Part shown: in pieces, positions 11,787 through 17,206 of the stretch
Position numbering within the stretch: position 1 is the stretch's first letter
Layout of the letters: every line of letters starts with the position of its first letter
Assembly: GCA_020621965.1 (NCBI GenBank)
Contig: JAHRYV010000016.1
Location: forward strand, 1-64,000
Length of the DNA stretch: 64,000 nt
Direction of reading: 5' to 3'
From: Curvibacter sp.
GTDB taxonomy: Bacteria; Pseudomonadota; Gammaproteobacteria; Burkholderiales; Burkholderiaceae_C
The notes under the pieces: model-generated
What the model was told of the DNA's origin: nothing
Seen by the model: only the letters and a program-made list of their open reading frames with translations
Databases searched by the model: none
Made by a program: the position numbers and the translations under genes

Positions 11787-12010
11787 GCCGGGATTGTCGG
11801 TGAGCCTGGCGGGTCTTGCTGGTTGGGGGGCATCTGCTGGTCAGCGGTGCCACTGAATATCGGTGACTCAAGGCGACCCATTACGGGCGGTCGTGGCTTG
11901 AGCAAGCACACGTTTAGTGATTAAGAAAATCTGGCCTCGACGCAAAGGTTAAGCCCACGCTAATCAAGGCTGCCTTTACGGCTCTCAACCGGGCGCCTCG
12001 CGATAACGAG
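11787..12010. other. Left junction of the accessory island
   Basis: GC content falls across this stretch. It contains an imperfect inverted repeat (CTCAAG-GCGACC at 11867-11878 against GGTCG-TGG-CTTGAG at 11889-11902). No integrase, tRNA or clear att duplication is visible here or at the right edge (17118-17206). Confidence 0.35.
11793..11798 (-). promoter_or_regulatory. -10-like hexamer directly before LLM oxidoreductase start
   Basis: GACAAT on the minus strand ends 6 bases before the ATG at 11786, with no Shine-Dalgarno between. Confidence 0.4.
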
Positions 12011-12931
12011 CTAGTTCGCCACGTCTGCCCAGTTCCAAACGTCTCGCGCAAGTGGTTCAGGGGAGGCGTGTGCAGAGACCACAAAGCCTTGTTTCTCCAG
12101 ATTCCAACTCTGCTCGCCCAAAATGTTCTCGAGGCGCTCAAGTTCTGCTACCGGTATGGCATCTGGTGCAGGCGTTAGAACGAACAGCGCAAGTTCCTGG
12201 TCATGAAGTCCTTTGACTTTCGCATAGGTGGCCAAGTCCCTGGATGCGCGGAGAAAGTTCAGTTCCACATTCGTTGGTGTTTTGTACACGGCAGAAATTA
12301 CGTTACCAGCTTTGCCAGGAGGCTCAAGATTGAACTCAAGCCAATGTACTTCGCCGGTGACTTGATCCCGAAATGCACGCTGTGGTTCGGCGTGAATACG
12401 CTCAAAAGCGATGCCCGCGATGCGTTTCAATTCATCATCGACCATGCGCCGTACGGCGGTGTTGTCGAGCGTGATGAAGTCCCGGGCTTTACGCTCCTCA
12501 CGTGGTATGAACGGAACAACGTCCAAAAATAGCCGACTGAGCACTGCATCAATAGATGTGCCGGCAGTCGGCCAAAGGTCACCTAAGTGGACCGCTGCAG
12601 ACTCAAACTGCACGTCGTGAAGCGAGGCCTGTTCCTTGCGAGCACGTAGCAGGCCGTACTCCGCTGCCTCCAGCAGGCTCCTCAACTCTGCAACATCCTC
12701 GCGTCCGTATAGACATTCGAATCTTGTCAGGTCGTCCAAGAGTCGAAAGCTGAATACGCCCTTCGCGTCTGTCACAGCTACGCCAACCGTATATCGCTGT
12801 CTTGCGAAGGGGTCTGGCTGTAACTCAATAGTCGCCCATGAGCCATCAAACGCGGCCTTGGGTACTGTGGACAAGTGCTCCCGCAGATGCGCATAGGGGT
12901 CATCGCCCTCGGACAAAAACATGCTGTTCAT
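12011..12931 (-). CDS. Partner protein of HipA-like kinase (DUF3037-like N-terminus)
   Basis: 306 residues, not confidently assigned. The N-terminal region (ATIELQPDPFARQRYTVGVA then VTDAKG) resembles DUF3037 proteins, which often sit beside HipA_2-type kinases. The rest is mixed alpha/beta without a recognised motif. The ATG at 12931 overlaps the stop of the kinase gene (ATGA), so translation is coupled. A longer frame from 12961 is less likely. Composition is AT-richer than the flanking chromosome. It may be the kinase substrate, an antitoxin or an effector; the sequence does not decide. Confidence 0.7.
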   Translation of the reverse strand: MNSMFLSEGDDPYAHLREHLSTVPKAAFDGSWATIELQPDPFARQRYTVGVAVTDAKGVFSFRLLDDLTRFECLYGREDVAELRSLLEAAEYGLLRARKEQASLHDVQFESAAVHLGDLWPTAGTSIDAVLSRLFLDVVPFIPREERKARDFITLDNTAVRRMVDDELKRIAGIAFERIHAEPQRAFRDQVTGEVHWLEFNLEPPGKAGNVISAVYKTPTNVELNFLRASRDLATYAKVKGLHDQELALFVLTPAPDAIPVAELERLENILGEQSWNLEKQGFVVSAHASPEPLARDVWNWADVAN

Positions 12932-13734
12932 GTGATAAGCCCCAGTTCGTTGGCAAGCCAATCTGGTTGAGCACGTTGCCCCAAAAATTGAAGGATAGCT
13001 GTTGTGGTTTGCGTCGCCCGAATCGGATCACGTACAAGAGTTTGAACCAACTGCTGCAACGCGGGGGAGACCTTAAGAAATGCCGGGTGATGATCTTTTG
13101 AAGCAAGCATCATCGACACTTCGAATTTGGCATAACCAGCAGGTTTTAGAAGTGCCTGCGCTTGTGCCTTCAAGCTTCGGTGTTCATATCCGAAGCCCAT
13201 TGAAACCCATAAAAGCGTGTAAAGAATCAATTCATTGTCAATTGGTACGTACGTTCCCGCTTTGTCTCGAATGAAGTTGGCGGCATGTCGGTCCTGGTTT
13301 TCTACCCACATGTCGAACGCTGCAATCTTGGCAATATCCTCTCGGGTAAAAGCCTTTGCTGCCCTGACCCGAGCGAGCCATTGCCATGCACTGGTAATGT
13401 GCTTGCCCTCGACGGTGGAGGAGCAGAACGCGAGTGCATGCTGGATACCTGACCAGTGCTGGTCCATGGGCATGCAAGCTCGCAGCTTGTGTATTGGCAG
13501 TATGAGTAGCGCAGCAAACTTCGGCCGGGGTAGACCCAAGGCATCCAACGCCAGCCAGGCCAAGCCTTCAGCCAGTGGCATTGGGTAATGCGCTGGACTT
13601 GCCTTCACAAAGCATTTGTGTTCCTGGCCTGACGCATCGATGATGAGCGCCTGGTGGATCGTTTGATTTTGCCCACGGACCTTGGGCGCGCTTCTGAATT
13701 CGCGCCAAGCTGTCTCCGGCAAGATTGGAATCAT
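12928..13734 (-). CDS. HipA-like (HipA_2) Ser/Thr kinase-fold protein
   Basis: 268 residues with the minimal kinase core of HipA-type proteins: Lys in KCFVKAS (ATP-binding), Glu in LAEGLAWLALDALGL (helix-C equivalent), the catalytic loop FDMWVENQDRHAANFI, and PIDNE as metal-binding Asp. All key residues are present, so it should be active. It lacks the N-terminal subdomain of E. coli HipA. HipA phosphorylates GltX in the HipBA toxin-antitoxin system, but the target here is unknown. No HipB-like gene is adjacent; instead a perfect palindrome lies 33 bases upstream. It is coupled by ATGA to the downstream partner. Confidence 0.82.
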   Translation of the reverse strand: MIPILPETAWREFRSAPKVRGQNQTIHQALIIDASGQEHKCFVKASPAHYPMPLAEGLAWLALDALGLPRPKFAALLILPIHKLRACMPMDQHWSGIQHALAFCSSTVEGKHITSAWQWLARVRAAKAFTREDIAKIAAFDMWVENQDRHAANFIRDKAGTYVPIDNELILYTLLWVSMGFGYEHRSLKAQAQALLKPAGYAKFEVSMMLASKDHHPAFLKVSPALQQLVQTLVRDPIRATQTTTAILQFLGQRAQPDWLANELGLIT

Positions 13735-13766
13735 CTAGCCCCCAGTTGTCTTTTTTCTGCATTCTA

Positions 13767-13790
13767 GGTGCCATAGGAGTTTATGGCACC
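13767..13790. promoter_or_regulatory. Perfect 9-bp palindrome before the HipA-like gene (candidate operator)
   Basis: GGTGCCATA at 13767-13775 and TATGGCACC at 13782-13790 are exact inverted repeats with a 6-base spacer, 33 bases upstream of the kinase start. No T-tract follows on the minus strand, so an operator is more likely than a terminator. It differs in sequence from the operators at 16101-16173. Confidence 0.6.
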
Positions 13791-13884
13791 CAAATTGACG
13801 CTCAAAAGAGGGCGTAGCTATTGGATTGTTGCGCGTCGGATACCGTTGCGCTTCCATGAGCAGACAGGCTCGGGGCTATTCGCC

Positions 13885-15378
13885 CTATTGCGCTGTGTCG
13901 GTCAGCTTTGCCGCCGAATGCCCTATCCAACTAGCCCAGAGATTGCGCAGGAGCGACAGCATTCGAGCCCGAATGGTTTGAGGCCTTCCGGTTTTCTCTC
14001 GACAGGGCAGGCGAACGGCGGCGCCACGAGCGAAACGGGATTCGGCATCGTCAGAACATTCACTGCAGTCCTTGTCTTGGCGGAGATTTGTCTTCGACCA
14101 CGACCCTTTGAACACGTCATACATGTAGTACCCGGCCGTTGGACGCTCGACGTCTGTACCGACGAAATCCATCAGGAAATCGTGAGTTGCGCGACTTGCG
14201 CCGATGCCATTGAGGGTGATGACACTTGGATTGGGTGTCTCGGTGCCGTAGTTCTGCGCACGCCACTCCTCGTCAGGCTTCTCCTCGATGGCCAAGCGGG
14301 AGCTGGAAATCAATCCGTTGCATAGCATGCAACCGCAACCAGGACGCATGTGGCGCACGGCACTGTAGAACAGTTCAAGCTTGCCCGTTTGCTCTGCGCG
14401 ATGAATCTTGCTGCCAATCTGCACTGCGGGGATCAGGTGCTGGTTGACTATGGCGTTCACGGCCAACCTGGCGCGCATTGTGTCGGCGCACAAGAAGATG
14501 AAATCACAGTCAACGAGTCTGTCGGCCACACCCTCGTAGGAAACGTCGTCGTTGATAACCTCGCAACGAACGCTAGGGTTCACCTGCCGAGCATACCGAG
14601 CTGCCAACTTAGATTTCGGAGGCTTACGCGCTACGTCGCGAAAGAATGCTGTCACTACGCGGGACAGGTTCGTATCTTCGAGCTTGTCGGAGTCAATCAA
14701 AAGCAGCTCCCCGACACCGAGGCGCGCCATATCCTGGACGATCATGGAGCCCACACCACCCAGTCCGACGATGGCTACCCTAGCGCCGGCGAGTTGGGCC
14801 TGTCCGGCTTCACCAAGGAAGCGGACTTGTCGGTCGACGCTGGGGCGGTACGCTGTCTTTGGCGCTTGCATCGGTGAGGAGTAGAGTCGCTGAATTCGGG
14901 ACGAAACGACCGTGCAGTGTTTCAATTCGGAGCGTTCTGTTTTCGACCACCATAGGTCAATTTGCATCGACCGCCGACCGAACACCAGCGCGCCGACTGG
15001 CATACCCTTGGTGATGTCTAAAAGCGCTGGGTAGCCGCGTTCGTGCGAGGCGAAGTCCACATCGGAGAACTCAACGGACTGGTCAGAAGCATGGTTATGG
15101 ACGTGCAAGTACACCAGTCTCTCGTTACGGGCTCGCACGACGGCGCGATTGATGAATGTCGCTGCTAGACGACCGTGACCTTGTGGGGAAACTCCGTAGT
15201 CCGCACCGTCTTGAGCAACGTGAACTTCCCGTACGAGAAGTCGAGGTGATTGCCCTGGACGTTCCACGAGGGTCGCCAAAACCACAGCTGCATGCTCACA
15301 ACCGTCGCCCGGATACAGATGCCTGTAAAGCTGATCCCACTGGGCTTGTGCAAAGCGCAATTCGACGTCGCGATTCAT
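13885..15378 (-). CDS. JAB (JAMM peptidase) - E1/ThiF adenylyltransferase fusion
   Basis: 497 residues. Residues about 25-150 form a JAB/MPN domain with an intact JAMM signature: Glu in CEHAAVV, then HNH...FSDVD (H-x-H-x8-S-x2-D), consistent with an active zinc isopeptidase. Residues about 175-430 form an E1/ThiF domain: GLGGVGS nucleotide loop, LIDSD, NLSR, then GCGCMLC and a later CSEC pair for zinc or catalysis. E1 enzymes adenylate the C-terminus of ubiquitin-like proteins; JAB proteases remove them. Fusion of both in one chain is known from prokaryotic ubiquitin-like operons. Its start overlaps the stop of the E2-like gene (ATGA). The C-terminal about 60 residues are basic and unassigned. 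Confidence 0.88.
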   Translation of the reverse strand: MNRDVELRFAQAQWDQLYRHLYPGDGCEHAAVVLATLVERPGQSPRLLVREVHVAQDGADYGVSPQGHGRLAATFINRAVVRARNERLVYLHVHNHASDQSVEFSDVDFASHERGYPALLDITKGMPVGALVFGRRSMQIDLWWSKTERSELKHCTVVSSRIQRLYSSPMQAPKTAYRPSVDRQVRFLGEAGQAQLAGARVAIVGLGGVGSMIVQDMARLGVGELLLIDSDKLEDTNLSRVVTAFFRDVARKPPKSKLAARYARQVNPSVRCEVINDDVSYEGVADRLVDCDFIFLCADTMRARLAVNAIVNQHLIPAVQIGSKIHRAEQTGKLELFYSAVRHMRPGCGCMLCNGLISSSRLAIEEKPDEEWRAQNYGTETPNPSVITLNGIGASRATHDFLMDFVGTDVERPTAGYYMYDVFKGSWSKTNLRQDKDCSECSDDAESRFARGAAVRLPCREKTGRPQTIRARMLSLLRNLWASWIGHSAAKLTDTAQ

Positions 15379-15758
15379 GCCTGACTCCTCACGAATTCGA
15401 CCACCTTCACAAATTTGGCGGGGGCCGATTGTCCGCCGGCCATCCTGTTATTGCGCCGTGAAATCTGAATCGATGGACGCCCCTGCCAAGGCGCGCTGGA
15501 AAACGGTCCGGCCAAAGCTGCACCGTCGGCTTTCGCCACCTCGGCTCCCATGAACAGGGGGTAGATGTCCGCGTACGGGAGGCTGGCAGGGAGGTGGGCG
15601 CCAAGCCACGTCTTGGAAGTGCTGAACTTGGGGCCCAGCTCGATGCCATCCACAAGAACATAGGCTCCACCATTACCGTCCTCAGCCAGGACGGCGACGG
15701 TGGCGTTCGGAAACGCCTTTTTGAGGCCCTCAATAGCCGCTGCGACGCTCGGAGTCAT
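15375..15758 (-). CDS. E2/UBC-like protein lacking cysteine
   Basis: 127 residues between the ubiquitin-like and JAB-E1 genes, the position of an E2. The LGAHLPASLPYADIYPLFM stretch and the WQGRPSIQISRRNNR segment resemble Prok-E2_E-type E2-fold proteins (LP-x-YP-x-x-x-P-x-F, then WQ-x-W-S-R-H). The protein contains no cysteine at all, so it cannot form the usual thioester; it may be a non-catalytic scaffold or use another residue. GGAG 7 bases before the ATG at 15758 fixes the start; upstream in-frame codons overlap the previous gene and are rejected. The family call is inference from weak motifs plus gene position. Confidence 0.65.
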   Translation of the reverse strand: MTPSVAAAIEGLKKAFPNATVAVLAEDGNGGAYVLVDGIELGPKFSTSKTWLGAHLPASLPYADIYPLFMGAEVAKADGAALAGPFSSAPWQGRPSIQISRRNNRMAGGQSAPAKFVKVVEFVRSQA

Positions 15759-15771
15759 GACAGGCTCCGGG

Positions 15772-16071
15772 CTAAGAGTTGTCGTCCGGAGCGATGCAAG
15801 TGAAGTCCATGCCCTTATGGACGCGCACCTCATCGCGGTCGCCAATAACGTCGTACTCACCGTTAGGCCGTTGAAGCTGCAGGACGAAATCCGGCTGGAT
15901 TTGCACCCCTTGCGCGATGGCCGCCTGCTTGATTTCCAAGCCGGTCATCACCTTCTCATCGAGCACCACCGGGTAACCGTTGATTTCCACGGTGACCTTT
16001 ACGGGCTCGTCGTTTCCGCCGCCGTGGTCATTGCCGCCGTGGCCTTGTGATTTCTCATCAATGTTAGCCAT
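15772..16071 (-). CDS. Ubiquitin-like beta-grasp protein (multiubiquitin-domain family, single unit)
   Basis: 99 residues: a Gly/His/Asn-rich flexible N-terminus (SQGHGGNDHGGGNDEP) followed by one beta-grasp domain (VKVTVEINGYPVVLDEKVMT, GLEIKQAAIAQGV, then FTCIAPDDNS). The pattern fits the multiubiquitin (Multi_ubiq) family, whose genes associate with E1, E2 and JAB genes. The C-terminus ends DDNS with no Gly or Gly-Gly, unlike conjugated ubiquitin-like proteins. GGAGG 6 bases before the ATG at 16071 supports this start. It is the first gene of the operon, 13 bases before the E2-like start, under a divergent promoter with two operators. Confidence 0.82.
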   Translation of the reverse strand: MANIDEKSQGHGGNDHGGGNDEPVKVTVEINGYPVVLDEKVMTGLEIKQAAIAQGVQIQPDFVLQLQRPNGEYDVIGDRDEVRVHKGMDFTCIAPDDNS

Positions 16072-16100
16072 TACTAACCTCCGTTGCAAAATTGGCCTGC

Positions 16101-16118
16101 AATTGCTAAACTGCAACT
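16101..16118. promoter_or_regulatory. Operator site 1 (AATTGC-N6-GCAACT)
   Basis: An imperfect copy of the palindrome AATTGC-N6-GCAAYT, 30 bases upstream of the ubiquitin-like gene start, placed to block its promoter. It is 55 bp centre-to-centre from site 2, about five helical turns. Confidence 0.65.
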
Positions 16119-16155
16119 GCTGGACCGGAGTCTAGCGATACCTTTTCAGCAAGTC

Positions 16156-16173
16156 AATTGCTAAGTTGCAATT
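16156..16173. promoter_or_regulatory. Operator site 2 (AATTGC-N6-GCAATT, perfect)
   Basis: A perfect 6-bp half-site palindrome, 18 bases upstream of the XRE regulator ATG. With site 1 it suggests cooperative binding by the adjacent regulator and autoregulation. Confidence 0.7.
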
Positions 16174-16191
16174 ATTTAACAAGGAGAGACC

Positions 16192-16542
16192 ATGGCGGAT
16201 TCAAAGGGCTTCGACGGCCAAGCCTTCTTTAGTGCCTTGGCCAGCAGGGTTGATGCGAAAAGCCTCACCTGGAAGCAAGTGAGTCAGTCCACAGGAGTAA
16301 GCGCATCAACATTGACGCGAATGGCGCAGGGGAAACACCCTGACGCAGCAAGCTTGGCCGCTCTGTCAGCTTGGTCAGGGTTGAACCCTGCGGAGTTTGT
16401 GGAGGGAGCCGAGCCAATCAACTCAGACTTTGTGACCGAGTTCTCAGCTCTTTTGAGAGCCCAGCAAGACCTGAGCGGCGACGCAAAGAAGGCAATAGAA
16501 GGGCTGGTGAAAACAGCCTATGAGCAATTCAAAACCAAATGA
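16192..16542 (+). CDS. XRE-type helix-turn-helix regulator
   Basis: 116 residues with a Cro/C1-type HTH at about 24-65 (SLTWKQVSQSTGVSASTLTR then MAQGKHPDAASLAALSAW) and a short helical C-terminus that could dimerise. AAGGAG 6 bases before the ATG supports the start. It is divergent from the ubiquitin-like operon across the paired palindromes and is followed after 8 bases by an ImmA/IrrE protease. In phage and ICE systems such pairs form a repressor and the protease that cleaves it, so this is the likely repressor of the operon. Confidence 0.82.
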   Translation: MADSKGFDGQAFFSALASRVDAKSLTWKQVSQSTGVSASTLTRMAQGKHPDAASLAALSAWSGLNPAEFVEGAEPINSDFVTEFSALLRAQQDLSGDAKKAIEGLVKTAYEQFKTK

Positions 16543-16550
16543 GGTAGGAC

Positions 16551-17117
16551 ATGCAGCGGGGATTCAAAGCGTTTGCGGAAAAACTTGCCGTTCAAGTACG
16601 CATGGAGATGGGTATCCCCGCTCATGGCAAGCTTTGTGCATTTCGACTGACTGAGCACCTTGGCATCCCGACGGTCGGCTTTAGCAGGCTCGCTGCAGGT
16701 GCCAAGAGTGCCGGCGTCACTGATGAGCAACTAGCGGCCCTGGAGAACGAGGTGCATGGCATGTGTATCCCGCTGGGTACTGGCCATGCCATCTTGTACA
16801 ACGACAAGAATCAACCGACGCGGCAACAAAGCGACATCGCTCACGAGGCCTCGCATATTCTGCTGCGCCATCCTCTGGCAGACATTGTGTCAGGAGCGGT
16901 GAGCCATCGCAGCAAAGAACTTGAAGAGGAAGCTGCCCACCTAGGCGGAGTGCTGTTGCTTCCCATGCCGGCGGCACTTCACATCCTTCAACAGCGGATA
17001 TCTATCGACGCCGCCGCCGCTCAGTACGGGATTAGCCCCGAGATGGTGACCTACCGATGCAATATCAGTGGTGCTCGCCAAATTCATACACGTGGGGCGC
17101 GAGCCCAGCGTCATTGA
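16551..17117 (+). CDS. ImmA/IrrE-family metallo-endopeptidase
   Basis: 188 residues with the zinc motif HEASHILL (HExxH) at about 100 and a downstream acidic helix KELEEEAAHLGGVLLLP supplying the third ligand, the hallmark of ImmA/IrrE proteases. ImmA of ICEBs1 cleaves the repressor ImmR, and Deinococcus IrrE cleaves DdrO after DNA damage. Lying 8 bases after the XRE gene, it probably cleaves that regulator on a stress or phage cue. It is convergent with polA. Confidence 0.87.
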   Translation: MQRGFKAFAEKLAVQVRMEMGIPAHGKLCAFRLTEHLGIPTVGFSRLAAGAKSAGVTDEQLAALENEVHGMCIPLGTGHAILYNDKNQPTRQQSDIAHEASHILLRHPLADIVSGAVSHRSKELEEEAAHLGGVLLLPMPAALHILQQRISIDAAAAQYGISPEMVTYRCNISGARQIHTRGARAQRH

Positions 17118-17206
17118 GCGGACCATAACGGATCAAGGTCTGCTATCTGGCGGGCACCTCGGAGTCCGTTCCTGGCCGCAATCCGCCGCTCAAGCTTGAC
17201 GCGCAA

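Follow-up and report, generated by a model that had tools for sequence, protein, structure and literature searches.

The window, that is, the whole stretch of 64,000 nucleotides of Curvibacter sp. DNA analysed here (contig JAHRYV010000016.1), carries three coupled minus-strand genes encoding a ubiquitin-like protein (Ubl), an E2-like protein and a single chain that combines a JAB (JAMM) peptidase with an E1 adenylyltransferase. The Ubl stop codon and the E2-like start are separated by a 13-base gap, and the E2-like and JAB-E1 genes share an ATGA overlap at 15375-15378; an earlier reading made from the letters alone (the sequence-only reading) had given both the coordinates and the coupling exactly.

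13885..15378, minus strand: JAB (JAMM) peptidase and E1 adenylyltransferase fusion (BubCD-like), 497 amino acids (Pfam ThiF, BubCD match, alignment)
15375..15758, minus strand: E2/RWD-fold protein (BubB-like), 127 amino acids, without Cys (model, PDB match, profile alignments)
15772..16071, minus strand: Ubl (BubA-like), 99 amino acids, single Multi_ubiq beta-grasp domain (Pfam, AlphaFold model, clade alignment)

The locus is a real and intact operon of the Bub family on a mobile-looking island. Its architecture is ordinary for a family already described, in a minimal form with one Ubl domain and three genes, and its interest lies in the conserved glycine-free end of its Ubl. Two features had been missed by the sequence-only reading, namely the absence of Cys from the E2-like protein and the DDNS sequence that, throughout a clade of related operons, ends the Ubl instead of Gly.

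The three protein identities proposed from the letters were borne out. The Ubl matched the Pfam family Multi_ubiq over residues 26-95 (E 2.3e-11, 44.2 bits, cut-off 24.5), and its AlphaFold model (predicted local distance difference test, pLDDT, 80.0; predicted template modelling score, pTM, 0.59) had the strand and helix order beta-beta-beta-alpha-beta. Searched against the PDB, this model matched the bacterial multi-ubiquitin entries 9D5A, 9D59, 8U38, 9D5B and 9CD2 with probability 1.00, although the best row by E-value was a superantigen-like protein and no row reached E ≤0.001. In Pfam, NCBIfam and PADLOC no family matched the E2-like protein significantly; its model (pLDDT 92.9) was of E2/RWD type, and the top PDB match was Citrobacter BubB (9EAE chain C; template modelling scores 0.72/0.72, probability 1.00, E 4.8e-3), again with no match at E ≤0.001. 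Profile comparisons related it to BubB (E 1.3e-5) and to ten E2s from Bub-like operons outside the clade, hereafter the other branches (hhalign probability 97.6, E 3.7e-12). The JAB-E1 protein matched Pfam ThiF (E 6.6e-33) and, over residues 11-402, Citrobacter BubCD (E 1.1e-27 with the single sequence, 1.9e-42 with a profile); the Pfam scan gave no JAB match, and the JAMM residues are conserved as described below.

An alignment of seven JAB-E1 proteins seeded the survey. Scanning genome contigs with it gave 128 confirmed relatives; the best 80 of these, the window and eight plasmid loci (L002-L009) make up the 89 clade loci. All three genes were present in 84 of the 89, and the gene set is therefore not a product of chance; homologues do occur together outside the source genome. 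Four of the other five loci (L029, L052, L054, L061) were cut by contig ends, their upstream sequence being gone. In the fifth, L050, the clade JAB-E1 gene had no Ubl or E2 match beside it despite 7.9 kb of upstream sequence. In a tree of 97 E1 rows (86 from the clade, with the incomplete L009, L022 and L063 dropped, and 11 others), a branch with support 100 separated the clade from the rest, although the program flagged long branches on the non-clade side. The tree carried 13 phylum labels, including Pseudomonadota, Actinomycetota, Cyanobacteriota, Chloroflexota, Gemmatimonadota, Nitrospirota, Verrucomicrobiota, Acidobacteriota and Spirochaetota, to which L009 adds Deinococcota. Among 60 genomes searched, its own included, a clade member was found only in the source genome; four (G025, G002, G018 and G059) had other types as judged by the tree, one had no match and the remainder had ThiF-domain matches only. 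A scan of viral contigs returned 85 pattern stretches with no relative among them, and of 13 phage records none covered 80% of the query, the 10 rows listed matching the ThiF part only.

The Ubl of the window ends in ...FTCIAPDDNS. Across 84 clade Ubls the last four residues were DDNS in 76, HEDS in three, EDNS in two and DDHS and DHCS in one each, the remaining protein (L077) having DDTS followed by two extra residues. These four positions rank among the best conserved of the protein and contain Gly in none of the 84, and the tenth residue from the end (-10) is Phe or Tyr in 82. Upstream of the tail Gly is scarce, occurring at -5 in 16 and at -9 in 3 of the 84. The unfused Ubls of the other branches, in contrast, carry Gly at the position of the clade's final Ser, with the same spacing from a like Phe, in nine of ten cases (L150 being the exception): those of L143 and L145 end in ...FG, those of L100 and L102 in ...EG, and those of L010, L092, L144, L146 and L148 continue for two to four residues past the Gly. 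In five further loci (L099, L101, L104, L147 and L149) the Ubl end is not directly readable because Ubl and E2 form one fused protein. The solved Citrobacter BubA constructs end in ...NNG. Ser thus appears to have taken the place of the reactive Gly in the clade. A literature search for such a DDNS tail returned no paper; as it did not cover the two main Bub papers, the tail may have been published there.

The E2-like protein of the window contains no Cys, and no column with at least 15% Cys was found in the alignment of 86 clade E2-like proteins. A canonical thioester step is therefore impossible at this protein. Conserved residues include S100 (86/86), R101 (85/86) and K115 (86/86), with S100 lying in the sequence QISRR in the window and in QxSRRSN in the clade consensus. 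Three MAFFT modes and hhalign placed S100 on the Ser of an S-[RW]-H motif in all ten other-branch E2s aligned; the motif was seen in 13 of 14 such proteins inspected, the exception being L150.

In the JAB-E1 protein the JAMM residues E28, H94, H96, S105 and D108 are kept in all 89 clade rows, as are G205, G207, G208, G210, N237, R240 and K255 of the adenylation site, while D299 is kept in 88 of 88; R240 and K255 are also present in all 11 other-branch E1s. By our own matching of residues, R240, K255 and D299 would correspond to Arg73, Lys86 and Asp130 of MoeB, as listed in PMC12355090. Two CxxC pairs (350/353 and 438/441) are kept across the 86 complete clade rows, and position 385 is Ser in 83 of these, Ala in two and Asn in one, against seven Ala, two Asn and two Ser among the 11 other-branch E1s. 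Beside the JAMM Asp lies a SHERGYP motif (residues 111-117), whose S111, H112 and R114 are present in 86 of 86 clade rows but in only three, none and one, respectively, of the 11 other-branch rows; the motif is a candidate reader of the DDNS tail. C291 was considered as a catalytic Cys and discarded, since it lies ahead of the strand of the ATP site and 11 of 88 rows have another residue there. Tyr377 is common to all 86 clade and all 11 other Bub-like E1 rows. Residues 459-497 form a C-terminal extension, and of the 80 contig loci L011 and L075 alone have a survey match that extends to residue 497.

Judged by its sequence, the operon is of the Bub family and of type 6e of Iyer et al. 2006, which was described as having a Ubl of one to three domains, a Cys-less E2/RWD protein in the middle, termed likely inactive, and a JAB domain at the N-terminus of the E1 (PMC1779556). 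The order of Ubl, inactive E2/RWD and JAB plus E1 is that of the window operon, which differs in lacking the metal-binding protein Y of the type (C-x3-C-x35-38-H-x2-C), an extra gene not given there as obligatory; the section on type 6e is silent about the Ubl tail (PMC1779556). The sequence-only reading had regarded gene order, JAB-E1 fusion and regulator as distinctive, and this novelty of architecture is not upheld: order and fusion were both described in 2006, the gene products have solved counterparts in the Bub proteins of Citrobacter, and CapH with CapP beside Bub operons has already been published (PMC13373217). The window shares with the Citrobacter Bub structures (9EA4, 9EA5, 9EA8, 9EAE, 9EAV, 9D59) a Multi_ubiq-type Ubl, a JAB-E1 single chain and an E2-fold protein without Cys and with a conserved Ser, but differs in its solo Ubl with the DDNS end and in its separate E2. 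The C. freundii plasmid operon L099, unlike that of the window, has a multi-domain Ubl fused to the E2 and an E1 without CxxC pairs, and is followed by a small gene that is a seed of the DUF6527 profile, no DUF6527 gene being found in the window operon. Upstream of L099 lie genes for a hypothetical protein and a winged helix-turn-helix (HTH) protein.

Divergent from the Ubl operon are two genes for a predicted repressor and a metallopeptidase, with promoter-like and operator-like sites in the region between:

16101..16118: operator-like site AATTGC-N6-GCAACT (inferred)
16129..16157, minus strand: sigma-70-like promoter TTGACT-17-TAGACT, directed at the Ubl operon (9/12 matches)
16156..16173: operator-like site AATTGC-N6-GCAATT, overlapping the -35 box by two bases (inferred)
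16192..16542, plus strand: HTH regulator, predicted CapH-like repressor (Pfam HTH matches below curated cut-offs)
16551..17117, plus strand: M78 (ImmA/IrrE) metallopeptidase, CapP-like, with HEASH motif (Pfam, PADLOC)

The HTH protein scored 20.7 bits to HTH_31 (cut-off 27) and 20.2 to HTH_3 (cut-off 23). The M78 protein scored 47.8 bits (cut-off 22), bears its HExxH motif as HEASH and matched PADLOC capP at 4.2e-7, more weakly than RmrA (1.2e-7). The arrangement resembles that of CapH and CapP, where HTH and M78 peptidase genes stand divergent from an immune-type operon. The two operator-like sites are 18-bp near-palindromes at the promoter-like site, and the AATT...TGCAATT frame of the site at 16156 is kept in L011 and L022. 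In the 73 clade loci with at least about 2.9 kb of upstream sequence (16 were too short), HTH and M78 matches were found together within 4.5 kb in 25, HTH only in 23, M78 only in 19 and neither in six, a count in which seven loci (the window, L002-L006 and L009) were themselves seeds of one or both regulator profiles. CapW or CapH plus CapP is reported for 219 of 544 Bub operons in PMC13373217.

Downstream of the operon lie the genes of a HipA-like kinase and its partner, and the accessory-island setting proposed from the letters agrees with an alignment to Polaromonas sp. C04 (L011):

12011..12931, minus strand: partner protein of the HipA-like kinase, 4-base overlap (no assigned family)
12012..17086: island block common to Polaromonas sp. 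C04 (nucleotide alignment)
12928..13734, minus strand: HipA-like kinase (Pfam PF20613, 28.8 bits, cut-off 27)

The block, an island of about 5.1 kb, aligned in two pieces with 75.6 and 73.5% nucleotide identity, and the rest of the window between 5001 and 26000 had no match to the 17.5-kb Polaromonas locus. The island lies between polA and a monooxygenase gene, a gap that was compared between the window (11800-17206) and its genus relatives and was spanned in eight of 12 stretches (L131, L132, L135, L137, L139-L142), polA not being reached in the other four. Among the eight, the distance is 846 and 856 bp in two and 1976-8035 bp in the other six, and this spread from 846 to 8035 bp suggests a place where insertions vary; inspection by eye recognised no defence gene among the open reading frames in the gaps of the relatives. 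In the sequence available for the 89 clade loci, no locus other than the window and L011 (Polaromonas sp. C04) had the HipA-like pair with the operon, and the kinase and its partner were for this reason rejected as part of the conserved module. A like two-gene HipA unit was observed on a 3.5-kb Salmonella plasmid (L130, 369-2056) without a Bub operon; the pair is thus read as a separate passenger, possibly an independent toxin-antitoxin-like or defence unit.

Taken together, these data make it somewhat more probable than not, in our judgement, that the locus is a Bub-family, Cys-free module for Ubl conjugation and deconjugation under damage-responsive repression, on an island shared with the HipA-like passenger pair. 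The E1 domain, its residues intact, would adenylate the Ubl C-terminus; the E2-like protein would dock on it as BubB does with BubCD in PDB 9EAE, take up the Ubl on Ser100 through an oxyester in place of a thioester, and pass it on to an amine of the target. Bub enzymes reportedly act via oxyester intermediates (Ye et al. 2026). The Ubl would be taken off again by the JAMM domain that shares a chain with the E1. The Ubl would be made with its final DDNS C-terminus, and the JAMM peptidase would therefore not be needed for maturation. By analogy with CapH and CapP, the divergent HTH repressor would bind the paired operator-like sites, and single-stranded DNA arising from DNA damage or phage replication would lead the M78 peptidase to cut it, which would free the operon from repression. 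The output would be a stress or antiphage response, with the HipA-like kinase pair acting independently as a passenger.

Several observations weigh against this conjugation model. In the pairwise alignment to BubB by HMMER, which is shifted by one residue, S100 stands opposite a Trp, and where S-[RW]-H has its His the window protein has Arg. On the E1, S385 was rejected as a proven nucleophile as it is not kept in the other branches. DUF6527, annotated or matched in 12 of 15 other-branch loci inspected or scanned, occurred in none of the 89 clade loci, eight of which had less than 1 kb of downstream sequence. The promoter-like sites in the region (three found, 1.9 expected) are at chance level. 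A fixed defence-island setting is not supported, the flank families being mixed: when 109 of 124 selected open reading frames of the flanks were scanned against Pfam, without a control, AbiEii came up twice, BrxL once and a transposase core three times among many other families. According to PMC13373217, phage protection by Bub has not been demonstrated.

The frame of the sequence-only reading was a canonical thioester cascade of the kind used by type II CBASS (cyclic oligonucleotide-based antiphage signalling system; Cap2/Cap3) or by Bil. The conjugation logic with E1, E2 and JAMM parts is indeed alike, and Ubl, E2 fold, E1 and JAMM are all there. In Bil systems the E2 carries a Cys, and E1 and JAMM are encoded by separate genes, whereas the E2-like protein of the window lacks Cys and its JAB and E1 share one chain. 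The E2 of the nucleotidyltransferase operon type likewise bears Cys according to the corresponding section of PMC1779556. The kept E1 cysteines are the two CxxC pairs plus C291 near the ATP site, comparison of the seven island proteins with Pfam, NCBIfam and PADLOC turned up neither the cGAS/DncV-like nucleotidyltransferase (CD-NTase) nor the Cys-bearing E1-E2 fusion by which type II CBASS is recognised, and the PADLOC matches, among the best 25 of 32 listed, fall on the ThiF part. The E2 step being already contradicted, the cascade was rejected for want of Cys in the E2-like protein and is highly improbable. The same lack of Cys would also suit a module that does not conjugate at all, in which the E1 only adenylates the Ubl in the manner of ThiF, MoeB or MccB, the E2/RWD protein is a catalytically dead adaptor and the module yields, as product or signal, the Ubl-adenylate or something derived from it. 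MccB, a relative of E1, acts on a peptide ending in Asn, and past the adenylation site no Ser, Thr or Cys is common to all aligned Bub-like E1s; the likely inactive E2/RWD of Iyer et al. (PMC1779556) points the same way. We nevertheless find this distinctly unlikely: S100 is invariant, the JAMM residues kept in every clade row imply a bond to cut, and the title of Ye et al. 2026, in the reference list of PMC13373217, claims protein conjugation by a diverged bacterial pathway.

As to the tail, we propose, at a little below an even chance, that a large, phylum-crossing clade of Bub systems dropped the terminal Gly, and that its ready-made DDNS Ubl is activated through the C-terminal seryl carboxylate and passed along Ser-based, Cys-free carriers, its acidic tail being read by clade-typical basic residues, for which E2 R101-R102, E1 R342 and the JAMM-side H112/R114 would be the candidates. 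The DDNS tail could also be a propeptide cut off by the JAMM domain, with the conjugated residue further upstream, which would fit the two to four residues after Gly in five other-branch Ubls, consistent with trimming, and the clade-typical S111, H112 and R114 adjoining the JAMM Asp. Such trimming seems somewhat unlikely, given the lack of a conserved upstream Gly, the conservation of the final four residues and the aromatic residue kept at -10. Were the DDNS end activated as proposed, a ubiquitin-like modifier could act without a C-terminal Gly and without a Cys carrier, and the glycine-free tail would be unusual chemistry. The locus having the minimal three genes, three purified proteins could suffice to reconstitute this chemistry, and DDNS offers a short signature for spotting the clade in genomes.

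The biological role bears on a further explanation, compatible with the other mechanisms, in which the operon is an addiction or stress module without a phage role, kept in mobile islands, the HipA-like pair being toxin-antitoxin-like. The like HipA pair on the small plasmid without a Bub operon is in its favour, and a general stress role for Bub is left open in PMC13373217; we consider it rather unlikely, as the Ubl operon lacks the HipA-like pair in the available sequence of 87 of 89 loci. A phosphotransferase gene is annotated between E1 and DUF6527 in four other-branch Bub operons (L010, 6244-7848; L143, 4325-5809; L144, 4278-5726; L145, 4163-5629), a loose parallel to the kinase adjoining the window operon.

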